Below, piece by piece: positions 1 to 59,197 of a stretch of DNA of 64,000 nucleotides. The position numbers and the translations under genes were made by a program. Below the pieces are notes generated by a model. The model saw only the letters and a program-made list of their open reading frames with translations. It was not told where the DNA came from and did no database searches. The stretch's first letter is position 1, and every line of letters starts with the position of its first letter. The stretch covers positions 1 to 64,000 of the forward strand of contig LLEY01000080.1 in NCBI GenBank assembly GCA_001414485.1, written 5' to 3'. The stretch is from Calycina herbarum. Taxonomy: Eukaryota; Ascomycota; Leotiomycetes; Helotiales; Pezizellaceae.

Positions 1-246
1 TGTTAGGGGTTGCACCCGTGAAGTGGTCTTGGTTGCCCAGCGACAGGTGGTGGCAATAGCAGTGGCATGATGGTGGCAATCTACGTAATACTCATGACGT
101 AACACGTAATACTCATGGAGGACACGTAGCCACTTCTGTAGTATATAGAGAGGGTCGGGACTCTGGTTTAGAACAGCAGTTGTTCGTCCTTGTACAAAGT
201 CTACCTCTGTAGTTCAATTCACGAGTATTTGCTACACGTCCTGACA
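1..246 (+). mobile_element. LTR of gypsy family A (copy A0), least mutated copy
   Basis: Starts TGTTAGGGG and ends CCTGACA, the TG...CA ends of an LTR. It aligns along its length with the 242-bp LTRs of element A1 (32711-32952, 37983-38224) and the reverse-complement copies near 7970, 9736, 10090 and 17188. Unlike those it keeps many CpA/TpG dinucleotides, so it has suffered little RIP. It lies inside gag-like sequence of the minus-strand B1 element. The window begins exactly at its first base, so I cannot tell a solo LTR from the 3' LTR of a complete element to the left. The five bases after it (ATAAC) would be the target-site duplicate to look for. Confidence 0.75.
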
Positions 247-2009: not shown

Positions 2010-2442
2010 TGTAACGAAACTTAAACGAACTAAACAAAGATGACTAAGTCTCGAAGGTTAGTATATAGTAAGAAGTAAGACTGTGCTAGGTTGTTCACTT
2101 AGAAGTAAACTCGTTACTTATATCAAAGGTGTCAAACAAGATGATAAGATTAATAACTAAAGTTAAGCACGAAGCTCCTATCTAGATAGCAGACGTGCTA
2201 GTATATATAGAACCTACGTTTCCCCTGAGTAGCCAACTCGCTCGTCGAGCTGGCGATCCAACGAGCTAGTTCGCCTAGCGATCCAGCGGTCCCTTTCGTC
2301 ACGTGATTATCGTAATGAGATCCTTGGATCGTTTTAGCTAACCTAACCGATCCCTAACTACTATAAGAGTATTCCGATAGTGCTTAACCTGTCAGGACGC
2401 CGCCTGGTCTTCACTCATCACGTGTGCACGTGATTCGTGACA
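2010..2442 (-). mobile_element. 5' LTR of element B1 (family B), inserted in the intron-like array
   Basis: A 433-bp LTR on the minus strand: its plus-strand start TGTAACGAAACT is the complement of the family B LTR end, and its plus-strand end GATTCGTGACA is the complement of the LTR start. Copies in better context are at 22323-22743, 38905-39357, 39723-40162 and 58764-59197. A GC-rich hairpin-like core (about 2228-2290) differs strongly between copies. The LTR abuts the first array unit at 2443, so this insertion cut off whatever lay upstream of the array. TGTAG (2443-2447) is the candidate target-site copy; its partner would be left of the window. Confidence 0.8.
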
Positions 2443-3428
2443 TGTAGGAGGTAAGTAGACCCGTGTTTATTATAACAGCTGTGAATATTACTAATGTTTG
2501 TTAACTTGCTGGTGTAGCTTGTAAGCAAACCTAGGTTTAGTATAGTAGCTGTGAAGATTACTGATATTAGTTGATTTGCTGGTGTAGAACGTAAGTAGAC
2601 CCGGGTTTAGTATGTTAGCAGTGAAGATTACTGATATTAGTTGGTTTACTGGTGTAGGAGGTAAGTAGACCGGGGTTTATAACAGTAGCTGTGAATATTG
2701 CTAATGTTGGTTAACTTGCTGGTGTAGTTCGTAAGTAGACCCGTTAGTACAGCAGCTGTAAAGATTACTAATATTAGTTGATTTGCTGGTGTAGGAGGTA
2801 AGTAGACCCGTGTTTATTACAACAGCTGTGAATATTACTAATGTTTGTTGACTTGCTGGTGTAGCGTGTAAGCAAACCCAGGTTTACTATAGTAGCTGTG
2901 AAGATTACTGATATTAGTTGATTTGCTGGTGTAGGAGGTAAGTAGACCGGGGTTCATAACAGCAGCTGTGAATATTGCTAATGTTGGTTAACTTGCTGGT
3001 GTAGTTCGTAAGTAGACCCGTCAGCACAGCAGCTGTAAAGATTACTAATATTGGTTGATTTGTTGGTACAGTTGGTAAGAAGACCCGGGTTTAGGACAAA
3101 AGCTGTGACGATTGCTGATATTAGTGGATTTGCTGGTGTAGGAGGTAAGTAGACCCGTGTTCAGGACAGTAGCTGTGAAGATTGCTGATATTAGTTGATT
3201 TGCTGGTGTAGTACGTAAGTCGACCCGGGTTCAGCGCAGCAGCTGTGAAAGATTACTAATATTGGTTGATTTGCTGGGGTAGCGCGTAAGTAGATCCGGT
3301 TTCTCAGGACAGAAGCTATGAATATTGCTAATGTTGGTTGGTTTGCTGGTGTAGCGCGTAAGTAGACCCAGTTCCAGGACAGTAGCTGTGAAGATTGCTA
3401 ATGCTCCTTTCTTGCTTTGCTCATTTAG
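2443..3428 (+). repeat. Tandem array of about 14 intron-like 64-71-bp units with 3-nt spacers
   Basis: Fourteen head-to-tail units. Each runs from GTAAG(T/C/A) through an RCTRAT hexamer (ACTAAT, ACTGAT, GCTAAT or GCTGAT) about 22 nt before the end, to TAG (CAG once). Unit spans are 2451-2517, 2521-2587, 2591-2657, 2661-2727, 2731-2794, 2798-2864, 2868-2934, 2938-3004, 3008-3071, 3075-3141, 3145-3211, 3215-3282, 3286-3354 and 3358-3428. Consecutive units are separated by exactly three bases: GAG, CTT, AAC, GAG, TTC, GAG, CGT, GAG, TTC, TTG, GAG, TAC, CGC, CGC, then TAC before the next intron. None is a stop codon. A higher-order duplication is visible: units 1, 2, 4, 5 resemble 6, 7, 8, 9. What is seen is the repeat and its splice-like signals. 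That these are real introns and one-codon exons is inference; a non-coding minisatellite is the alternative. Confidence 0.9.
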
Positions 3429-3431
3429 TAC

Positions 3432-3495
3432 GTAAGTACATTTGTGTACCAGTTAAGATTAATCTTCCATTACTGTTACGCTAACCATATTATAG
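3432..3495 (+). other. Predicted intron between array and HET gene (phase 0)
   Basis: GTAAGTACA at the 5' end, GCTAAC branch consensus at 3480-3485 and TAG at 3493-3495, 64 bp: a textbook fungal intron. Its sequence is not a repeat copy, but it follows the same AG-triplet-GTAAG pattern (triplet TAC, 3429-3431) as the tandem units. The sequence after it (3496 onward, LDGQWIYIQ...) stays open in the HET reading frame up to the ATG at 3535. It may therefore be a 5'-UTR intron or the last intron of a longer coding region. Confidence 0.6.
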
Positions 3496-3534
3496 CTTGA
3501 TGGCCAATGGATTTACATCCAAGCGAATTCCTTT
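3496..3534 (+). promoter_or_regulatory. Open leader before the HET ATG, with overlapping short uORF
   Basis: Thirteen codons in the HET frame are open (L D G Q W I Y I Q A N S F) between the predicted 3' splice site at 3495 and the ATG at 3535, so the true start may lie further upstream. In another frame ATG at 3500 opens a 12-codon uORF whose TGA (3536-3538) overlaps the HET ATG, a layout that can dampen translation. No clear TATA box was seen. Any promoter upstream of the array has been displaced by the B1 insertion. Confidence 0.35.
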
Positions 3535-5554
3535 ATGAAGGAACTTCTGCGGGATCGCCCGTCTAATACAGTCTCCCAACCTTTGGTTTCTTCGAACTTA
3601 TGTACCGTTTGTACTGATGTGTTGTCTCATCATTTCCGCCCAAACCTCAAGCCTTTTTACTTAGGAAAAACAAAGGATTCTTGTTCTCTTTGTAGAATCC
3701 TCTGGAAACTCTTAGACCAAAAGAACTATAACCTAAGCAATCGAGTCAACTTTGGACTTTATCGAAAAGGCTCGGTGATATTCAGAAGCGAAAATGATCT
3801 TCCTATCCTCAGAATCTGTACAAGTCGAGGTATGTAAAAGAGTAAAGGAACAAGCAATCATTCCGCTACCAAATAACTTACCTCTTCTTTATGCTCAGAA
3901 CACGTAAATAATTCTAAGGATGTTCAAGTTGGATTTCCATTATTATCCGAAATAGGTAGCGAATCCTATTTCCAGTTGCTTTGCGACTGGCTTCGAGTTT
4001 GCGACGAAGACCATACCTGTTATCGAGGATCCGACGATTTACTACCGACCAGACTCCTTGATGTTGGAGACCAGGAGAGCTCGGGTTCCTTCCACCTCTA
4101 TGATAGTAAAGAAAATGAACGCGGAAGGTATATTGCCTTGTCTCATTGCTGGGGCCAGCTCAAAGCCGACGAAAAACTCTGCACGTTTGGCTGTAACATC
4201 AAGTCTCGATATAGGAGTATTGACTTCGTAAAACTACCAAAGACATTTCAAGACGCTGTTACTGTTACTCGAAAACTTGGTATACGATTCCTTTGGATTG
4301 ACTCTATTTGTATTGTCCAGCGTTATGAAAATTGCCCTCAAGAGTGTAGTGACGATAACGACTGGGAAAAAGAATCTCAAAATATGGAAAAGGTCTTTGG
4401 CTCAGCCTATTGTACCATTGCTGCTAGCTCCGCTAAAGATTCTACCCAAGGCTTCCTTAAATCACGGCTACCAATAGAGTATGTGTGGGTTCCTAGTTCT
4501 CCAAATGGACCAGTCTATATTTGCGAAAATTTCGATAATTTTCATCGCGATGTAGAAGAAGGGGCACTAAACAAACGGAGCTGGGTGTTACAAGAAAGAG
4601 CTCTGTCACGCCGAACCATTCATTTCTCTACTACGCAAACATATTGGGAATGTGGTAAGGGAGTTCACTGCGAGAGCATTATAAGAATGCGCAAGTAAGT
4701 GTATTATATTCAAGCAAAAAGCTCTGATTGAAGCAATCACCTTATAGAATTTACTTTTCTATAATACTTCTATTTATAAAACCGCTTCGATTCTTTTTTT
4801 GTTCTGGTCACTAACCTGTTTCTTTAGTCAAAAATCTGAAGTACTAGGCGATGCTAGTTTCCCTAACTTCATTTCAAAAAAGGGCAGCAGATCGAAAATC
4901 ACTCTCTTCCGGGACCTTTTTGAAAAATACTCGAAGCTTAAACTTTCTTTTCTGACTGACAAGTCCGTTGCGATCTTTGGGCTAGAGAAAAGACTTGTAG
5001 AGTCTTTCTGCACCGAAGGAAAGCACGGAATCCTACAATGCTACTTACATCGGAGTATTCTGTGGCACCGTTCTGGAAAGAGAATGAAGCGTATAGACTA
5101 TCCATCTGACAAGAAGGTTCCAACATGGTCCTGGATGGCATACGAGGGTGGAATCAGTTACATGGAAATTGAATTCAGTCAAGTAGGATGGAGTAACGCC
5201 GTTCAATGGTCCTCCAGCGAACCTGATAGACTCAAAGCTCCTGTGTGGGAGTTCCAGCTTTGTATAATATAACCGGAGGATTCGGAGGATGATATATGTC
5301 GTATTGCTGAGAATAGTAAACAAGGGTGGCTGATGTTTGATGGAGAGAATATAATGGATATAGAAAGATTGAAGTGTGTTATCATTGGAAGGGCATTGCG
5401 TGAAGAAGAGAAAGGAGAAGAGAAAAATCTTTCTATATTAGTTGTTACTAAAGTCGAGGGAGAAAATTCTAGATATCAAAGAGCTGGGGTGGGCTTTGTC
5501 CAAGGAAGATATATTTCATTTAGAGAGGGGGACTTTGAGGCGCGAATTATTTGA
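3535..5554 (+). CDS. HET-domain (heterokaryon incompatibility) protein, 3 exons, premature stop at 5270
   Basis: Exons 3535-3829, 3899-4694 and 4828-5269 give 511 codons before TAA at 5270-5272; reading on in the same frame gives about 605 residues to TGA at 5552. The N-terminus has paired cysteines (CTVCTDVL, near residue 23, and CSLCRILW, near 52) typical of this family. The HET domain follows: YIALSHCWG near 176, LPKTFQDAV near 211, WIDSICIVQ near 231, an acidic DDNDWEKES segment and AASSAKDSTQGF; WVLQERALS lies near 327. The C-terminal part has KVPTWSWMAY and, after the stop, LKCVIIGRALREE and VGFVQGRYISF, motifs usual near the end of such proteins. HET proteins act in non-self recognition and cell death during hyphal fusion, which is known for the family; the partner here is unknown. 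The stop could be CAA to TAA, a RIP-type C-to-T change. Start choice is open (see leader and array). Confidence 0.85.
3830..3898 (+). other. HET gene intron 1 (69 bp)
   Basis: GTATGT at 3830 and CTCAG ending at 3898. Splicing joins codon GAA across the junction (phase 1) and keeps the frame from RICTSR into EHVNNSKDVQ and on to the HET domain. Without it the frame stops at 3837. No perfect branch consensus is present; ATAAC near 3873-3877 is a candidate. Confidence 0.8.
4695..4827 (+). other. HET gene intron 2 (133 bp)
   Basis: GTAAGT at 4695, CACTAAC branch-like motif at 4809-4815 and TTTAG ending at 4827. Splicing (phase 2) joins the exon ending near IIRMRK to NQKSEVLGD in frame. Long for this gene but with good signals, including a T-rich stretch near 4793-4800. 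Confidence 0.8.
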
Positions 5555-6181
5555 TGTTTGTCTATTGCTGGTGTTCATTCCATGGTTAAGATTGTAGACA
5601 GCTAAGGTTAATAGATTTTATACCTCTATAGTATTTATTGCCCGCAGTTACAGTCCATCCTTTTATCCCCTCGTGTCTTTCATCCTAATTCAAGATCATA
5701 TGAGCATATCGTGTATTTACCGAGGTAGAGATATTTGTGCATTTGTTGTAGATGTGTATGTTAAGGACAGTACAGTTAGATGAAATACAATAACTGTTAC
5801 GGAATTGGAGGAATTATGACACTGATATCATCATAGAGATGATATCTCTATGACGTTGATATCTGTCACGTTTTTGATGTCACGGGTTACATGTAAAGTG
5901 TACAGTGCAAGTAAAAGGTATTGTATTTCCAAAAAGAATAAGCTGAAGAGGGAAAGGAGGAAGACGAGAAGCTCTTCGTGCAAGGTGAAGTTTCTGATGC
6001 CTGGTCAGAGCTTCTTGCTCCAAGCGTTGGTGATGAGGCGATAAGAGAGGAAAAGGGGTGAAGGGCACGTGCGTGGCTAGCCGAGCTTCATTCTGGGTAC
6101 CAACCCATTACATTTGATTTGTGAATAGTTGCATATGTGGGGAATGGGACCCGCAATCATTAATCATACGTGTACTTAAAC
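5555..6181. other. Spacer downstream of HET gene, no gene seen
   Basis: Base composition is balanced and TpG/CpA are present, so this stretch has escaped RIP. It should hold the HET 3' UTR. Short open frames on both strands near 5850-6068 overlap each other and resemble no family I know. Confidence 0.4.
5831..5853. repeat. Perfect short hairpin (10-bp stem, 3-nt loop)
   Basis: TCATAGAGAT, loop GAT, ATCTCTATGA form a perfect inverted repeat about 280 bp after the HET stop. TGATATC-type motifs lie on both sides (5823-5829, 5857-5863). It could be a transcript 3'-end structure or the tip of a small decayed inverted-repeat element; the sequence does not decide. Confidence 0.5.
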
Positions 6182-6349: not shown

Positions 6350-6975
6350 TGTCCTTTCGTTTCTCAAAAGCTTTTAACCGTTCGTTTTTCGTAGGTTTAA
6401 GCTTATCAGGGAACCGATTCTCGAACGTACGTATCGAGGCAGTACTATTAATAACATTAACCAATGATTCCCATGAATTCTCTTCCTCGCTATATCCTCG
6501 CTATATCCTCGCCATCTTATCAGGTACTCGAATCCTCTACCTCTTCTCCTCGAATCCACTATCTCTTCTACTGCCCATATAGCATGTCCTTCATCGTCGA
6601 TCGCTACATGCGGAGGTGCTGGGTTGACTTGCCCTGTTATAGGGACACCAGCGGCTGGGCTTAGCAAATTAGTATGGAAAACCGGGTGGATAGACCGTAA
6701 TTCGTAGGGAAGCTCTAGCTTGTACGAGTGGGAGTTCATGATCTGGAGTATTCGATAAGGGCAAATGTACTTAGCATTAAATTTGGGAATGGGTCTCCCT
6801 GACTTGATGTTCTTTGTACTTAGCATAACCATATCTCCAATTCTGTACGCTGGTGCAGGGGACCGGTTCGCATTAGCCGATTCCTCTATGCGATCTCTTG
6901 TTACAAGCAAATTAGTGTGTAAAAGACCTAGGACCTCTTACATTTCCTGAGAAAAAGTCCGCCCTGCAACAGCGT
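6350..6975 (-). pseudogene. Integrase C-terminus and chromodomain fragment of family F (F0)
   Basis: On the minus strand from about 6975: HTNLLVTRDRIEESANANR, then the integrase C-terminal tail (YRIGDMVMLSTKNI, KFNAKYICPYRIL, HPVFHTNLL) and a chromodomain (FEYLIRWRGYSE), as at the end of chromovirus pol. 178 codons are open from 6910. The frame upstream is interrupted by TAA after QEM (about 6941). Downstream, an 11-bp tandem duplication (6489-6510) shifts the frame inside the chromodomain; in the other frame the normal continuation ENSWESLVNV is visible. It matches the F1 chromodomain region (29980-30120) closely but with few RIP changes, so this fragment reached its site by a history different from that of its AT-rich relatives. 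Confidence 0.8.
6489..6510. repeat. 11-bp tandem duplication inside the F0 chromodomain
   Basis: GCTATATCCTC occurs twice in a row (6489-6499, 6500-6510). One copy restores the chromodomain frame, so the second is a frameshifting duplication. Confidence 0.85.
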
Positions 6976-8076: not shown

Positions 8077-9336
8077 CAGGCCCGAAATAATGTTAGTTTC
8101 ACGTCTGTGCGCTACTCTAGAAGGTTCCCCCCTTTACGTCACTCCAGCCAATGACTATATAATGCTCTCGACGCTGCTTTTGTACCTGTTTTCGAGCAAT
8201 TCGCCATCATGGAGACATCTTACTCTATACCTATACCAAAAACACCACGAAAACAATGTACTTGCGATGATCGACTACGAATTCAAACCCTCTACTTCGA
8301 TGCCGGATTTACAGAGGACGAGATTGCTCTTCAACTTAATATTACCCTCTAACAAGTATAATACGCTCTCTTCTACTGACTTACTCCTCAAAAACACCTC
8401 TAGGGGAGGAAGATCCTCTTAAATACCCCTTAATAAAAGCGCCTTATTAAATAGGTTATAGTATCAAATATAAACCAACGTATATAATAGACTAATATAC
8501 TAGCTATTCTAAAATAGGATTACGGAGAAAAGGCTATTCGTGCTATATTTTATAAAGAAGGCTTTATATAACGAATTACTTGATAAAAACCTCTACTTAT
8601 AGAATAATATAAAAACGATTAGCTAGCCTAGGCTTAGGAATATATATTTTAGATAGACGAATAGTAGGAGTTAGTACTTTACAGCGATAAGACATAGGTA
8701 AATCTAGGAAGACATATAAAGACCTAGGTAACTTATTAGATAGGAGAAGAGGAAGTTTATAATAAAGATTATATTAAAGACTGATTTCAAAGGAAGATTA
8801 GATAGATGTTTTAGAGCTTGATAAGTAGTAAATATAGAAGGTATCAGAGACTCTTTTAGGAGAAAGATTAGGAGATAATAAATAAGAGGTCTTATAGTAG
8901 AATTATTATACTAATTATATAAGAGATCTTACTATAGTATTCTAAGCTCTTATTCTAATAAGATAATATACGTAGATATTATTCTAAGTATATAAAGTCT
9001 GTTTTATAAGAAATCGGGATTGTTTCTATATTTTAGCTTATAAGCTCTTCTAATTTAAATCTAATTAAAACTATTTAGGATAAAATAAAGGATTATATTT
9101 AGACATATTACTCTAACGTCTATAGATTCTATCTACGTCTCTAAAAAGCTATATAGGAAGCTTAGGATTCTATTATATATACTATAATCCGGGAGCTTAT
9201 TAAGAGTATAGGTAATCGATATATTAAAGTGATTTTAGTAGATAGAGGCTATATAAAATACTAGGGTATTAAATAAAAGCAGTATTACTAAGTATTTAAG
9301 ATATACTAACGTGAAACTAATATTAATTCGGCTATA
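8077..9336 (+). mobile_element. Tc1/mariner-type transposon with about 28-bp TIRs
   Basis: 1260 bp bounded by TA on each side (8075-8076, 9337-9338). The left end CAGGCCCGAAATAATGTTAG and the complement of the right end TATAGCCGAATTAATATTAG are inverted copies, followed on both sides by TTTCACGT. Size and TA target fit Tc1/mariner. The first ~300 bp is little mutated and the rest is heavily RIPed. Confidence 0.8.
8209..9264 (+). pseudogene. Decayed Tc1/mariner transposase (DDE_3 type)
   Basis: From ATG at 8209 a frame of exactly 352 codons, including the stop at 9262, can be followed: about 46 clean codons (RLRIQTLYFDAGFTEDEIA, helix-turn-helix region of the family), then RIP stops (TAG/TAA) throughout. 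Recognisable pieces include EEEVYNKDYI, QRKIR-MF, KYRRYQRLF, EKD-EIINKRSYS and a terminal RGYIKY just before the stop; hyphens mark stops. These follow the order of fungal mariner transposases. Length matches an intact gene, with no frameshift needed. Confidence 0.75.
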
Positions 9337-38904: not shown

Positions 38905-39357
38905 TATTACAAATCACGTTTTACGTAATAAGTAGTCTAGACAGCGTTCTAATAGAATAAGGTATAACGTCTAGGAAATAGAAGATAACATAGGAGGGAA
39001 TCTATAATATAGAAGGTATTTAGGAATTCTAGGATCTCACTATTAGAAGTTGGTTATAATCACGTGACTAGGAAGGTAAGCGACATAGCCGACGAGTCGA
39101 CTATGTCGACTATAGTTAGATAGATCGACTATAGCGGCTAGGAGATACGAAGGTTCTATATAGAACTAGCACGTCTGCTATTAGATAGAAGCTTTATACT
39201 TAACTTTAGTTATTACTCTTATTATCTTATTTAACATCTTTGATATAAGTAACGAGTTTACTTCTAAGTGAATAATCTATCGCGTCTATACTTCTTATCT
39301 ATATACTAATCTTCGAGACTTAGTTATCTTTGTTTAGTTCGTTTAAGTTTCGTTATA
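38905..39357 (+). mobile_element. 5' LTR of family B element B3
   Basis: 453 bp, TATTACAAATCACG to TTTCGTTATA, followed by the family B leader and gag start. Its core (39086-39150) carries the private palindromic run CGACATAGCC...GTCGACTATGTCGAC, unlike other B LTRs. B3 runs 38905-39717 and 52706-57345, split by B2. No 3' LTR remains. Confidence 0.8.
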
Positions 39358-39379
39358 CTTCAAGTATCTACTTAGAAGT

Positions 39380-40229: not shown

Positions 40230-40891
40230 ATTAGCTCTCTTATACTATAATGTTTTTAATAACACTATCTATAAAAGATAAACTAAAATAAAATCGTATT
40301 AATAACGCTCCCTATATTAATCGAGTAGGATCTGAAATATCCTCTTATACTCGCTATCTTACTTCTACGTCTAGCTGCTAATATATATCTATTACTAGGG
40401 GTAAGAAATGTTCTAAGTATACTAGGAATAGTAAAACATATAATATTAAGGAGTAAAATCGAATACTCTTAACTTTTAAATAAGAATCTCTTAATATATA
40501 GAAACGCTGTCTATAGGTTAAGAAGGAGACAGCTTATTAGGCCTAAGAAAAGGCCTTTCGAGCCTAGTAGAAAGCAATGTTAAAAGTTCTCTATCTTCGA
40601 GTATAGTAACGTCTTCTTAATAAGCAAGAATAATAGATACTTTGTTAAGGACTTAGCACTCTTTAAGAGCTAGATAAGGCTAAGGAGAAGGAGGAAAAGA
40701 AAAAAGAAGAGAAGGAAAGAAGAGAGGAGGCTACTAGGCTAGCCGCCTACTCTACCTCTACTGCTTCCGACCCTGCTTTCAACCTAGGTCTCGATCCTAG
40801 TTTCCTTAAGGTCTTCTCTATCGATTACCTAATATAGACGACCTTAGGTTTTAATAGTAGAAGTTCTAAAGTTCCTCTAAGTACTAGTTAA
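40230..40891 (+). pseudogene. Antisense accessory ORF of family B (B2 copy)
   Basis: Plus strand, opposite to B2. About 40650-40860 is a clean run: KEKEEKKKEEKERREEATR, AAYSTSTASDPAFN, LGLDPSFLKVFS, then TTLGFNSRSSKVPLSTS and TAA at 40889-40891. Upstream the frame continues with RIP stops. A charged helix followed by a short conserved acidic/hydrophobic tail is visible; no known domain. Stop codon overlaps the end of pol on the other strand. Confidence 0.6.
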
Positions 40892-40899
40892 TATTTTTT

Positions 40900-43800
40900 C
40901 TAGGTTCCTAAGTATTCTCTAAGTATAAGTAATCTAACTATTTAATTAAATACTTAATCTTATCTCTAATAATCTTATAGTTAAGAATTCTTTTAACTTT
41001 ATATTCAGCGTTTAGATTAACTAGTTGAATTTCTATAAATAGGGCTAGTAGTGCTCCTAGTAGTACTAGTTTAAGTAGAGATATATAGAATATTAGATAG
41101 ATGTTTATTATCCTTAGTAGTGCTAATTTATAATTTAAAAGTCTCTTAACTCGTTTAATTTTAAATAGTTTAAGTTTTTTATAATCTAGTTTATTACTTA
41201 GTCTTTTTATATTAATATTTTTCTATATTAAATAGACTTTATTCCTCTCTTTTAGTATTAGCTCCTAACTACGTCGTTTATTATAGTAGTATATATTTCT
41301 TTTAGCTATGAATTATAAATCCTCTATAAGTTCCTTATATAGCCTTTTGATTTTTAAGACGTAAACACGAGTAAGTTAGTTGTCGATAGTTATAGATAGC
41401 GGTTCTTAATACGCTAATAATTTATATCTAAAGTTAGTATAGAATAGTATAATAAGTGTTATTTCTATTACTAAACTATTATAGATAAACTATACTAAAG
41501 ACAGTAGCTCTACCTAGTTATCTTACTAGTAGTTTATATAATAATAAAGGTATATTTTAACTACTTAATTTATCTGTTCGTTTCCTCTATTTGTTTAAGA
41601 GTAGAAAGCTATAGAGAGCTTTTTTTTATACCTAATTATTTTATAAGAGTAATCTAAAATTTTAAGATAAAGAGTTTATCTCTATCTAAGAGTATTTTTT
41701 TAAGTAGTCTATATCTTAAAACTACTTCTCTAAAGAATACTAATACTAATTCCTTAGCTATACTTAACTCTATATATACTATTAGAATTATATACTTTAT
41801 AAGTCGTTCTATAATAACTAGGATCGTATTATACTTAACTCTTATTATTAGATCTTTAGATTTTAGTACTTAATAATAAAATCTATAGATATTAATCTCT
41901 AAGGTATTTCTAGTATTAGAGTAGTATTTATCTGTCTATAAGAAGCATAGTAGGAAGCCTTATTTCTAGTATAGGTATTATATTCTACTATTACCTTCTT
42001 AACTATTATAGATAATCGGTTAATATAATAGTATTATCTTATTCTCTAGAGGGTTCTACGAATTCCTTAGTAGCTATAAGTAGGCGTAGTATAGTATTCT
42101 TATATAAATTCCTTTATATACGAGCTAGAGACCTATAATTTCCCTTTTATATACTAGTTATAACCTTTATATATATTCTAAATTTTATTTATCTAGATAT
42201 TATTTATTACTACTATTTTATATATAGTAGGTACTAAGTCTCTATTCTTAAGAGTTTTTAAGATTATAATCTTCTTATACTCTTTATTTCTCTTTTATCT
42301 AGGTTTCTAGCTAAGAGTATTAGCTTAAGTATTTAACGTTCCTTTTATATATTAAATAATAATATTAAATCCTCTTAATATTTCTACTTATCTAGCTAAC
42401 TATCTAGTTATAAGTTCCTTAGTTATTATAAATATTCTAAGATTCTTATAGTTAGATAGAATCGTAACCTAGTATTTTACTAGCTATAAATAGATTCTCT
42501 AGTATTCTAAAGCTAATACTATAATAAGTAATTCTTTATTAAATATACTATAGTTTTATTATACTAAGTTAAATATTTTAGAATAATATATAATAAGTAT
42601 AAGTTTTCTCTTATGATTTAGTTATAGGTAAATCGTATCTACTACTATATCTAAGACGTCTATTTTAATTATACTAGGCTTATCTATATTAAAATCGTAT
42701 AGAATAGGTTTTTCTATAAACTTTACTTTAATTTTCTAAAAAGTATTCTTTACTTATTTATTCTATATAAACTTAATAGCTTTCTTAACTAGTACTATTA
42801 TTAGTTTAGTAATCTTTATATAGTCTTATATAAACGAATAGTAGAAGTTTATAAATCTAAGAAAGGACTATATATCTTTTATATTCTCTAGTAACTTCTA
42901 GTTTAAGATATCTTAGATCTTTACTAGATCTATTTCTATTTTCTCTAAGCTAAATACCTATCTTAAGAAAAGTATCTAAGTTACTCTAAACTTGTATTTC
43001 AAGAGTTTTAACTAAGAGTTTACTTTTATAAGTTATTATAAAACTTCTTTAATATATCTCTTATATTCTTCTTCTTTTTCTAAGATAATTAATATATTAT
43101 CTAAGTAATAGATTACTATTACTCTTAGAAGATCTCTTAAAATGTTATTATTTTATCTCTAATATATAGCTAGTATGTTATAAAGTCTAAATAGTATAAC
43201 TATATATTTGTAAAAGCCTAATAATAAGGTAAATACTATCTTCTATTCGTCTCTGACTTTTATTTATATAAGTCTATAAGTGTTTTATTAATCTAGTTTC
43301 GTAAATTATACTACCTTACCTAACTTATCTTATAAGTATTAGCTAGGTAGTAGCAGATAAGTATTCTTAACTATAGTATAATTTACTTCTTAGTAATTAA
43401 TATATACTCTTCTCTCTAGGTTATCTTTTTTCTTAATAATAAGTATATTTAAGGTAATTAGCGACTTAGATCTTCTAATATATCTCTTCTTAATACCTTC
43501 CTTTATATAACTTTCTATTCTCTATAGGCTTTTCTAGTTATATAACTAAAGCTTCTATTTTAAGAGATAATAACTCTCTTTTAATTTAATCTTATAATCT
43601 TATAAGTAATGTTTTAGCAAAGCTTATAAGTCTTCTAGGTTTTTAAACAAAGCTTTAAATTCTCTATACTATATAGGTATTTCATTATTAGCTTTCTTAC
43701 TAACTTATAGAAGACCTTAGGTAAGGTGTTCTAACGCTTTAGAAGAGGTAGTACTAATCTCGTTCTAGCTTTAAAGTTATAAATATAAACCTACGTATTT

Positions 43801-44350
43801 ATATTAACTAAAAGTTATTATTCTAGCTTTCTAGTCGATTTCTAGATTATATTCCTAAATCTATAGTATACTAAGTATTACTTCCTTACTTCCTATTTTA
43901 ATAATATCGAATTATATATCTAAGTAGTATTCTTTAATATTAACTTTTATTAGAATAGTTTACTAATTAATAATCCTATTTTAATATATAATATCTATTC
44001 TATTAACTACTCCTAGTTAATATAGTCTTATCTCTTTAATTAGAATGTTTAGCTTCTCTTAAGCTATTAGAGAGATAAAGTTACCTATTACTCCTAAGTC
44101 TATTATAACTTATAACTTTTTCTGTCTTATTTCTATAGTTATTACTAACTATTTTTCTCTTAAAGTAGTATTTAATTTTACTTTAATATATTAGACTTCG
44201 AAAGATTGATTTTCTTAATTATAATTCTTTCTCTTCTCGTTCTTATACTATAGAAAGAATCTTACTCTTTCTATATTAGTATATACTACCTTATATACTA
44301 ATCTATTTTCTATAATTCTTATAGTTTTAGGAATTCCCTTTATAAATCGC
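40900..44350 (-). pseudogene. B2 pol: protease, RT, RNase H, integrase, chromodomain
   Basis: Collinear in reverse with E1 and B3 pol. RT box YYLDNILI at about 43090-43115. Integrase about 41200-42250. Chromodomain near 40910-41010. RIP has closed all frames; this stretch is among the most AT-rich in the window. Confidence 0.75.
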
Positions 44351-54400: not shown

Positions 54401-57345
54401 GAAAAAAGAATTTAAGAGACTATATATTTAGAGTTTATTATCTAAAATTAGAAATATATACTACTTTAAGAGAAAAGCAGTTAGTAGTAACTATAGAAGT
54501 ATAAGAGAAAAAGTTATAAGTTATAATTAACTTAGGAGTAATAACTAACTTTATTTCTCTAATAGCTTTAAAAAAGCTAAACGTTCTAGTTAAAGGAATA
54601 AAACTATACTAATTAGAGGTAGTTAATAGAACAAATATTATATACTAAGATAAGATTATTAATTAGTAAACTATTCTAATAAAAACTAATATTAAAGAAT
54701 ACTACTTAGATATATAATTCGATATTATTAAGATAGAAAGCAAGGAAGTAATACTTAGTATACTATAGATTTAGAAGTATAATCTAGATATTAACTAGAA
54801 GGCTAGAACAGTAACGTTTAGCTAATATAAATACGTAGGTTTATATTTATAACTATTAGACTAGAACACCTTGTCTAGGGTCCTCTACAGGTTAGCTAGA
54901 CAGCTAATAACAAAATACCTATATAGTATAGAGAATTTAGAGCTTTGTTTAAAAACCTAGAAGACTTACAAGCCTTGCTAAAACATCGTCTATAGGATTA
55001 TAAGATTAAACTAAAGAAGAGTTATTCTCTCTTAAAGCAGAAGCTTTAGTTATATAACTAGAAAAGTCTATAAAGAATAGAAAGTTATATAAAGGAAAGT
55101 ATAAAGAAGAGATATATTAGGAGATCTAAGTTACTAATTACCTTAAATATACTTATTATTAAGAAAAAAGACAACCTAGAAGAGAGAGTATATATTAATT
55201 ACTAGGAAGTAAATTATACTATAGTTAAGAACGCTTATCTACTACTACCTAGCTAATACTTATAAGATAAGTTAAGTAAAGTAGTATAATTTATAAAACT
55301 AGATTAATAAAACGTCTATAAACTTATATAAATAAAAACTAGAGATAAATAGAAGATAGTATTTACCTTACTATTAGGCTTTTATAAATATATAGTTATA
55401 CTATTTAGACTTTATAATATACTAGCTATATATTAAAGATAAAATAATAATATTTTAAGAAATCTACTAGAAGTAATAGTAATTTATTACTTAGATAATA
55501 TATTAATTATCTTAGAAAAAGAAGAAGAATATAAGAGATATATTAAAGAAGTTTTATAATAACTTATAAAAGTAAACTCTTAGTTAAAACTCTTGAAATA
55601 TAAGTTTAGAGTAACTTAGACACTTTTCCTAAGATAGGTATTTAGCTTAGGAAAAATAGAAATAGATATAGTAAAGATCTAAGATATCTTAAACTAGAAA
55701 TTACTAGAAAACGTAAAAGATATATAGTCCTTTCTTAGATTTATAAACTTTTACTATCTATTTATTTAAGATTATATAAAGATTACTAAACTAATATTAG
55801 TACTAGTTAAGAAAGCTATTAAGTTTATATAGAATAAATAAGTAGAGAATACTTTTTAGAAGATTAAAGTAAGATTTATAGAAAAACCTATTTTATATAA
55901 TTTTAATATAGATAAGCCTAGTATAATCGAAACAGACGCTTTAGACATAGTAGTAGATATAATTCACCTATAACTAAATAATAAAGGAAAACTTATATCT
56001 ATTATATATTATTCTAAAACATTTAACCTAGTATAATAAAACTATAACATCTTTGATAAGGAATTACTTACTATAGTATTAGCTTTAGAATACTAGAGAA
56101 TTTATTTATAGCTAGTAAAATACTAAGGTATAGTTTTATCTAACTATAAGAACCTTAGGACATTTATAATAACTAAGGAACTTATAATAAAATAGTTAGC
56201 TAGATAGTTAGAGATATTAGAAGAGTTTAATATTATTATATAATATATAAAGAGAATATTAAACGCTTGAGCTAATACTCTTAGCTAGAAACCTAGATAT
56301 AAGAGAAACAAAGAGTATAAAAAGATTATAATCTTAAAAACTCTTAATAATAGAGACTTAGTATCTACTATATATAAAATAGTAGTAATAAACAACATCT
56401 AGATAGATAAAATTCAAAATATATATAAAGGTTATAATTAGTATATAAAAGGGAAATTATAGGTTCCTAGTTTATATATAAAAGAGTTCGTATAAGAATA
56501 CTATACTACGTCTACTTATAGCTACTAAGGAATTCGTAGAACTCTCTAAAGAATAAGATAATACTACTATATTAATCGATTATCTACGTTAGTTAAGGAA
56601 GTAATAGTAGAATATAATACCTATACTAGGAATAAGGCTTTCTACTATACTTCTTATAAATAGATAAATACTACTCTAATACTATAAATACCTTAGAAAT
56701 TAATATCTATGGATTTTATTATTAAGCTACTAAAATCTAAAGATCTAATAATAAGAGTTAAATATAATATAATCCTAGTTATTATACAACAACTTACGAA
56801 GTATATAATTCTAGTAGTATATATAGAGTTAAGTATAGCTAAGGAATTAGTATTTATATTTCTAAGAGAAGTAGTCTTAAGACATAGACTATCTAAAGAA
56901 ATACTCTTAGATAAAGATAAGCTCTTTATCTTAAAATTTTAGATTACTCTTATAGAACGATTAGGTATAAAAAGGAAGCTCTCTATAGTCTTTTACTCTT
57001 AAATAAATAGAGGAAACGAAAGGATAAATTAAGTAGTTAAAATATATCTTCGTTATTATATAAACTACTAGTAAGATAATTAAGTAGAACTGCTGCCTTT
57101 AGTATAGTTTACCTATAATAGTTTAGTAATAGAAATAACACTTATTACGCTATTCTATACTAACTATAGATATAAATTATTAGTATATCAAGAGCCGCTA
57201 TCTACGACTATTAATAACTAACTTACTTATGTTTACGTCTTAAAGATCAAAAGTCTATATAAAGAACTTATAAAGAATCTATAATTCGTAGTAGAAAGAA
57301 ATATATACTACTATAATAAACGACGTAGTTAGAATTAATTATAAG
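54401..57345 (+). pseudogene. B3 pol: protease, RT, RNase H, integrase
   Basis: Protease near 54510-54600 (INLGVITNFISLIALKKL). RT box YYLDNILIIL at about 55480-55512. RNase H 55880-56270. Integrase core includes an open run of 77 codons (56709-56942: MDFIIKLLKSKDLI..., REVVLRHRLSKEILLDKDKLF). The sequence stops matching family B near 57345, before the chromodomain. Confidence 0.8.
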
Positions 57346-58763: not shown

Positions 58764-59197
58764 TATAACGAAACTTAAATAAACTAAACAAAGGTAACTA
58801 AGTCTCGAAGATTAGTATATAAGTAAGAAGTATAAATACGCCGGGTTGTTTACTTAGAAGTAAACTCGTTACTTATATCAAAGATATTAAATAAGATAAT
58901 AAGATTAATAACTAAGTTAAGTATAAAGCTTCTATCTAATAATAGAAGTACTAGTCTAATATAGAACCTTCGTTCCTAGAATTCTACTAAATCCTTAGAT
59001 CTCTCTAGATTCTAAAGAGATTCTTAGAGATCTATTATATAACCTCTAATATACTTCTAATAAGCATGATCCTAGAATCCTTTAACTGTTTCTATTATTA
59101 CTAATTCTCTTCTATATTACCTCTCTTTCCTAGATACTATACCTTGTCTTATTAGAGCGCTGTCTAGACTACTTACTATATAACGTAATTCGTAATA
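58764..59197 (-). mobile_element. 3' LTR of family B element B4
   Basis: 434 bp, minus strand, TATAACGAAACTTAAA to AATTCGTAATA. Followed on the right by CTATCTCTTTCTTAG, the complement of the family B purine tract, so this is the 3' LTR and the element extends rightward past the window. Its core (about 59003-59040) has its own inverted repeat (AGATCTCTCTAGA / TCTAAAGAGATTCTTAGAGATCT). Confidence 0.8.

Follow-up and report, generated by a model that had tools for sequence, protein, structure and literature searches.

The window analysed here is a 64,000-nucleotide stretch of the genome of Calycina herbarum (contig LLEY01000080.1, positions 1 to 64,000, forward strand). Near its 5' end an array of intron-like units lies directly upstream of a gene with a HET domain, which functions in self/non-self recognition and cell death (Table 1). 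Fifteen complete introns, 14 of them tandem copies and one non-repeat, occupy positions 2451-3495, and their donors start at the first position given for each intron in the table. All 15 have a GTAAG start, an internal RCTRAY motif and a YAG end, as the preliminary description of this DNA had reported. On re-reading, the branch hexamer stayed within its consensus in 15/15, only the two R positions varying across the 14 units. The spacing from each acceptor to the next donor is exactly 3 nt throughout. The repeat introns measure 64-71 nt and, with their triplet, make units of 67-74 nt. Unit 14 is partly repeat with a unique 3' part, and intron 15 is wholly unique; the last intron of a related chain on contig C101 is likewise 64 nt long. 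The triplets, read from the GAG at 2448-2450 onwards, are of eight kinds among 15 and include no stop, and the predicted peptide is E-L-N-E-F-E-R-E-F-L-E-Y-R-R-Y, exactly as first read. No gap-0 chain of recursive splice sites (AG directly followed by GT, giving a zero-length exon) was found in the scan of the window, where all units are spaced by 3 nt.

Table 1. Predicted features of the array and of the HET gene that follows it in the window.
Feature	Position	Strand	Remarks
LTR-like repeat, TG...CA, interrupting the 5' end of the array	2010..2442	.	blastn match; ends read
TGTAG, acceptor end of the interrupted preceding intron	2443..2447	+	probable 5-bp target-site duplication
One-codon exon GAG (E)	2448..2450	+	
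14 tandem intron-plus-codon units	2451..3431	+	one-codon exons are the 3-nt gaps
Introns 1-7	2451-2517, 2521-2587, 2591-2657, 2661-2727, 2731-2794, 2798-2864, 2868-2934	+	
Introns 8-14	2938-3004, 3008-3071, 3075-3141, 3145-3211, 3215-3282, 3286-3354, 3358-3428	+	
One-codon exons after introns 1-14		+	CTT AAC GAG TTC GAG CGT GAG TTC TTG GAG TAC CGC CGC TAC
Last, non-repeat intron (intron 15)	3432..3495	+	64 nt; GTAAGT, GCTAAC, TAG
First long exon	3496..3829	+	in frame from its first base; starts LDGQWIYIQANSF
Ordinary intron, predicted	3830..3898	+	GTATGT...CAG
Exon with HET domain	3899..4694	+	PF06985, E 4.1e-28, about 4129-4596
Intron, predicted	4695..4827	+	GTAAGT...TTTAG
C-terminal exon of HET gene, predicted	4828..5554	+	in-frame TAA 5270-5272 unless there is a further intron

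The reading frame that opens at 3496, straight after the last acceptor, leads into the HET-domain gene. The exon that follows the chain is alike at the protein level, and in phase 0, in the window (LDGQWIYIQANSF) and in related loci on C1 (C1b, LNEEWDHIFDNSF; C1a, EDKWTYPPFNAF), C101 (SDEWVYAFDNSF), C224 (PQEWKIIFDNTF) and C312 (KDKWTYPPFNAF). The ATG at window position 3535 is unlikely to be the ancestral start, because C101 has no methionine there. Pfam scans of three stretches of the window returned HET only, and neither these nor three stretches of C1b contained a NACHT or ANK domain. The upstream exons of the HET gene are absent from the window, where the 5' end of the array abuts the LTR-like repeat. 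By eye, similarity to the relatives runs on past the in-frame TAA. With its LTR split and in-frame stop, the window's own copy of the HET gene may be dead, and the case made here therefore rests on its relatives. Downstream of the HET gene, a repeat of about 245 bp is shared at 84% identity between window positions 5881-6112 and C101 (L007) positions 8134-8378. Beyond it, an open reading frame at 6374-6937 on the minus strand resembles, by eye, the chromodomain-bearing end of a retrotransposon integrase.

The LTR-like repeat offers a clue to the missing upstream part. Positions 2008-2418 of the window match the LTR at the 3' end of an array on C52 (90% over 411 bp, blastn). TATAG precedes the LTR on C52 and TGTAG follows it in the window, consistent with duplication of a 5-bp target and a single RIP-like change. 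Apart from C-to-T and G-to-A changes, the last two C52 units show 0-2 differences from window units 2938/2661 and 2731/3008. Window units 2451 and 2798 are identical at all but 2 of 67 sites, and the GAG followed by unit 2451 continues, beyond the C52 end, the unit order seen at 2731-2798. The window array is probably the 3' half of a longer array that was cut by an LTR element. C52 and the window would then carry, on two contigs, the halves of a single array with about 31 repeat units into which a retrotransposon had inserted. The LTR-like repeat also recurs within the window as matching pieces at 39138-39359 and 58766-58974. Long stretches of the window (40652-44091 and 54538-57332, for example) match the C52 locus at about 87%, which suggests a transposon-rich region.

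Relatives were sought by DNA searches with the arrays of the window, C101 and C312, which are heuristic, and by a protein search with the HET exon. Arrays were located on C52, C68, C101, C127, C224, C312 and C1 (C1a, at about 1009 kb), and the protein search led to a HET gene at 762 kb on C1 (C1b). In a scripted scan the longest chains consisted of 25 introns on C312, 16 on C101, 11 at C1a, 8 on C224 and 6 at C1b. They reached 7 and 4 introns in the decayed copies on C52 and C68, and 1 each on C320, C363, C90, C335 and C45. The chains are of three sequence types, the first comprising the window, C52, C101, C224 and C68, the second C312, C1a and C127, and the third C1b. The three types matched one another in none of the three DNA searches; the intron signals and the 3-nt spacing are common to them. 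Since the units recur in tandem every 67-74 nt ahead of a gene, they could form a non-coding minisatellite, such as a promoter array, that resembles introns by chance. However, three mutually unmatched sequence types with the same signals and spacing are not what such a repeat predicts, and in C312 and C1a an ATG lies upstream of the array with the frame running through it, making this explanation extremely unlikely.

Gene models were built by hand for four of the relatives. They contain 26 (C312), 10 (C1a), 7 (C224) and 6 (C1b) one-codon exons, and all are open into the HET part. The C312 and C1a models run from an ATG via a 20-codon first exon, M[AE]TKSS[HY]FSDSGEDNGEYN[MI], and the C224 model from an ATG via 17 codons. 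The C1b model begins with an exon that has a protein kinase match (PF00069, 4.3e-20). A Pfam scan of three stretches of C1b returned Pkinase, PK_Tyr_Ser-Thr and HET (PF06985, 4.4e-29), and the protein kinase domain, the one-codon exons and the HET domain lie in one open frame of the model (L054 4004-5308), such that C1b is possibly a kinase-HET fusion. In the C1a and C312 models, the first donor GTAAGTGC and the last acceptor, which the two loci have in common, are unlike the scripted picks, and the reading frame was taken into account in choosing them. The seventh C1b intron, which is without the branch motif of the scan, was added by hand, and one later intron of the C224 model was given an AAG end. 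The C312 model stops at the edge of the extracted stretch, and one C312 unit contains an assembly N. Late stops in the models (codon 408 in C1a, codon 397 in C224) coincide with the expected place of the following intron. On C101 the HET part is interrupted by in-frame stops, and the sequence corresponding by eye to the C224 first exon is without the open frame of that exon; C101 was counted for triplets and left out of the gene models.

The loci differ in state of preservation. C52, C68 and C127 show signs of decay: ATAAG stands in place of the GTAAG donor in some units (3/18 in C52), donors are broken in 5/11 rows of C127, and the C52 and C68 loci have 31-32% GC. Such RIP-like decay, the HET genes and the intron signals together suggest a filamentous ascomycete. 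The intron after the first HET exon appears by eye to end in AAG instead of YAG in C101 (L007 about 5762-5825) and C224 (L048), and in C101 its first two bases seem to be GC. A stretch conserved at 79% lies about 190 bp ahead of the C52 (L006) and C101 (L007) arrays; it was also matched at C224, C68 and C312 and is possibly a common promoter. The genome has 57 NACHT matches, and the 13.5-kb contig that bears the longest chain has one of its own, at C312:3044-3532 on the minus strand (E 4.4e-14).

A caveat raised in the preliminary description was that spacer length is inherited with the repeat. C1b answers it. This locus has seven introns of 48-72 nt, six with the branch motif, and the six one-codon exons between them are CCA, TAT, AGT, CAT, AAG and CCG. 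The introns are mutually dissimilar: the mean pair score is -2.7, compared to -5.1 (sd 3.4) for shuffled sequences, and the highest is 3.5, compared to 5.0. Seven tandem C312 units, taken for comparison, have a pair score of 49.7. No chain above 2 arose in 5000 shuffles of the C1b stretch or in 300 of the 9-kb locus. Exons of 3 nt between introns that are not copies of one another indicate that this size is not merely copied with the repeat. Non-repeat introns 3 nt apart also border the repeats in C312 and C1a (AGA, TTA/ATT) and in C224 and C101 (AAT).

The pattern is confined to few places. The 68.8-Mb genome was searched for three GTAAG introns in a row, 3 nt apart, with the backwards pattern as control; chains with other donors may be overlooked by a GTAAG-based pattern. 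There were 60 matches genome-wide and none for the control. Fifty-six of the matches are within nine arrays or chains: 19 in C312, 13 in the array of the window (contig C359), 6 in C1a, 5 in C52, 4 in C101, 3 in C224, and 2 each in C1b, C68 and C127. The other four (C268, two; C97 and C347, one each) have starts that look unlike introns. Gap-3 chains of at least three introns numbered 0 in 288,518 strand-bases of control sequence, which included both strands of window positions 3601-64000, where no gap-3 chain exceeded 2 on either strand. There are counter-observations, however. The decayed C52 locus has one gap-3 chain of three on its minus strand, and in the controls chains of three began at two positions for gap 2 and at one for gap 12.

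Six of the nine arrays and chains precede closely related HET genes. For comparison, the best 30 of at least 136 HET matches were each excised with 1500 bp per side. Chains of at least six introns occur at 6/7 of the most similar HET loci and at 0/23 of the others, where the longest is 2 (Fisher p 1.2e-5). The sole exception among the seven is C320, which matches part of the exon only; its HET copy is 73% identical over that part and is without a chain. No significant match to the first exon was found within the 9 kb examined around it, and C320 was treated as incomplete. Among the loci examined, the predicted chains mark one group of HET genes. When the window, C101 and C312 arrays served as queries in heuristic DNA searches, matches to the repeat unit were confined to arrays, a distribution that differs from that of introners; the other matches were pieces of the upstream flank or the 3' flank.

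The codons and the introns of a unit differ sharply in variability. The comparison proposed with the first reading, of substitutions in splice signals and in triplets, was run, and substitutions do not fall equally on the two; the triplets vary far more. Mean per-column variability across the 14 window units is 0.06 for the donor, 0.17 for the branch, 0.05 for the acceptor, 0.21 for the remaining intron and 0.69 for the triplet. Mean pairwise difference for intron and triplet, respectively, is 0.182 and 0.692 in the window, 0.114 and 0.566 in C101, 0.025 and 0.778 in C224, 0.088 and 0.596 in C312, and 0.052 and 0.714 in C1a, although this contrast is drawn from unit pairs that depend on one another and may be exaggerated by gene conversion. 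In 5/5 arrays tested, the most variable three-column window of the unit is the triplet. Over four arrays, variability is 0.052 in the donor, 0.080 in the branch and 0.012 in the acceptor versus 0.125 in the intron body, with the exceptions of the C101 donor (0.129 versus 0.130 in the body) and the C312 branch (0.100 versus 0.101). Against a conservation specific to splicing, the blocks CTGTG and TTGCTGGTG of the window unit are conserved outside the splice signals, and conservation therefore extends beyond them. Rows 4317 and 5508 of C52 and row 4765 of C101 were omitted from the column and pair statistics, and the N-bearing C312 unit was dropped from diversity with its triplet still counted. 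An absence of A at codon position 3, suggested by 0/47 in three arrays, was abandoned as a rule on finding 5/79 in the wider set. Twelve tests for an amphipathic helix in the chain peptides yielded no clear sign of one, a single test being below 0.05 (C224, one scale, p 0.026).

Stops are absent from 79 triplets in six chains, one of which, C101, lies in a broken gene. Decayed copies have stops in 1/11 triplets (C127) and 1/6 (C68), but 0/18 in C52. All 55 repeat units examined in the window, C101, C312 and C1a have a GTRNR donor, a branch-like NYTRAY motif and an acceptor AG. These results bear on the possibility that the array is one long intron with a satellite inside and that exon 1 is joined directly to the HET exon. 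All the chain exons modelled are 3 nt, so that total skipping would keep the frame and the gene would work either way. Nevertheless, one long intron leaves unexplained the signals in all 55 units, the non-repeat chain of C1b, the stop-free triplets and the codons as the most variable part; moreover, introns of 1-2 kb are unusual in fungi. This reading is quite improbable.

Sequence relationships among units indicate how the codons came to lie where they do. Units with equal codons have more similar introns in the window (p 0.0175), C101 (0.005) and C312 (0.0005) by permutation, and there was no signal in C1a (p 0.74), the last of four testable arrays. It seems that codons are duplicated with their introns and then change. 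Three pairs of units have identical introns, one with the same codon (C101, CTC/CTC) and two with different codons (C224, TTT/CGT; C1a, CGG/GAC). C1a and C312 are close sisters, with 92-97% identity in the sequence flanking the array; they agree at 57/60 positions of exon 1, 51/53 of intron 1, 176/186 of the last three introns, 274/283 of the first HET exon and 1091 of the next 1185 aligned bases. The unit introns of C1a are 3-7% from the nearest C312 ones, yet the unit codon equals that of the nearest unit in 0/7, and only the flanking non-repeat codons GAG and AGA agree. Near-identical introns with different codons, as in C224, could also be accounted for if copies of one intron had been inserted between the codons of an older exon, the codons being a former normal peptide. 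The more similar introns of equal-codon units are instead what whole-unit duplication predicts. Invasion also fits poorly with nearly the same flanks around 10 codons in C1a and 26 in C312, with different unit codons, and with unit repeats that the three heuristic DNA searches matched only in arrays. An origin by intron invasion is accordingly improbable.

The chain may be spliced and yet serve mainly to keep HET protein low, with codon identity mattering little. Retention of a repeat intron would cause a frameshift or an in-frame stop in 60/60 cases, so none is retainable without one, and the HET domain is described as able to trigger cell death by itself (PMC10197012); both are in keeping with such a throttle on expression. 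It predicts neither codons that differ several-fold more than the neighbouring intron nor sister genes that share no codon between nearest units, and as the chief role of the chain it is somewhat unlikely.

The best overall explanation, to which we assign a probability of roughly three in four, is a chain of one-codon exons in a HET gene that encodes a variable peptide and evolves by turnover of whole units. That the stretch belongs to a chain of one-codon exons is itself very likely; the spliced reading of the preliminary description gains support from the non-repeat chain of C1b, the four open relatives and the phase-0 exon that follows. The anatomy of the array, the four open frames, the confinement to a single HET group within the loci examined, the codon hypervariability and the signal decay are properties of the sequence, and from this one genome we infer splicing and codon-by-codon translation.

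Under the preferred reading, each unit of 67-74 nt would be a complete spliceosomal intron in phase 0 plus one codon. Fungal introns are short and are recognised as units (intron definition). The introns would be removable singly, but two neighbours 3 nt apart could hardly be engaged together, and removal is therefore probably sequential. Full splicing would join the codons into a short variable peptide, followed by the conserved W..(F/N)..F exon and then the HET domain. In the four models this peptide would be 6 to 26 residues long and would separate a short leader, or the kinase region, from the HET part. Duplication or loss of a whole unit would lengthen or shorten the peptide by one residue with the frame kept, and exon skipping would likewise be frame-neutral. 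Introns would remain alike within an array while the codons diversify. Most likely the codons have been diversified by selection for a variable peptide, although targeted mutation of the 3-nt exon may be an alternative source of their diversity. Given that the HET domain is described as sufficient for inducing cell death (PMC10197012), it can be proposed, tentatively, that the chain peptide adjusts what a HET cell-death protein recognises or which partner it chooses. A more speculative and rather doubtful extension is a device for diversity codon by codon, in which the recognition peptide of a cell-death protein is stored as intron-plus-codon cassettes. Unequal exchange would add or drop single residues with the frame kept, and each residue would evolve separately between introns that stay alike, through strong diversifying selection or targeted mutation of the 3-nt exon. 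Subsets of the codons might also be chosen by alternative splicing, so that one gene yields many peptides.

Such an arrangement would give a gene a way to lengthen, shorten and alter a peptide by single residues with introns as the repeating unit. For splicing research, it would provide natural chains of up to 26 predicted three-nucleotide exons in which neighbouring introns are hard to define simultaneously. Annotation pipelines probably miss such exons, and similar genes may therefore hide in other fungal genomes.

Several known systems resemble parts of this arrangement. The WD40, ANK and TPR repeats of fungal NLR proteins such as HET-E and HET-D are comparable, being repeats of recognition proteins that are described as homogenised by concerted evolution and under positive selection (PMC4986451). 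In HET-E and HET-D the repeat is protein, whereas here the repeat is intron and codes for one codon only. Schistosome micro-exon genes and aphid bicycle genes are described as fast-evolving genes with rows of tiny exons, but their exons are longer than one codon and their introns are not known to form a tandem array. Fungal introners and stwintrons are likewise described as sequence-similar introns multiplied in a genome (PMC9860276, PMC12403724, PMC8469720). Introners are reported from many genes, whereas the introns here stand complete and side by side in one gene group. In stwintrons one intron is nested in the signal of another; every window intron has its own donor, branch and acceptor and lies 3 nt from the next.

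The closest parallel is in the truffle Tuber melanosporum, and the expectation that arrays of single-codon exons were unprecedented has to be given up. Three papers, citing Iotti et al. 2012, describe alternatively spliced codon-sized (3-bp) microexons in its NLR or NACHT-ANK (nank) genes (PMC10197012, PMC4986451, PMC3689799). Another paper states that, among fungi, only Schizosaccharomyces pombe has had its microexons tested by experiment, and places Iotti et al. 2012 among limited reports that lack such a test (PMC11121469); the truffle claim may thus rest on limited transcript data. Codon-sized exon arrays are, by these descriptions, already known in kind from truffle NACHT-ANK genes. The truffle family, which is connected with non-self recognition, resembles the present genes in having several 3-bp exons, to which a diversifying effect on the protein is ascribed; here the splice signals together with the open frame likewise predict consecutive 3-nt exons. 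The truffle genes, known here from the descriptions in citing papers, encode NACHT and ANK domains and are reported to be alternatively spliced. The present chains, known from genomic sequence, are in HET and kinase-HET genes whose scanned exons are without NACHT or ANK, and their introns are mostly tandem copies with hypervariable codons. The literature searched, outside which most subscription papers lie, contained no description of tandem intron-codon arrays, nor of HET-domain genes with one-codon exons. As far as that literature goes, what is new is the occurrence in HET and kinase-HET genes, the growth by intron-codon duplication, and the combination of similar introns with hypervariable codons. 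An oddity of intron splicing would thereby be tied to a fungal class of recognition and cell-death genes, and the little-known truffle case extended to another family.
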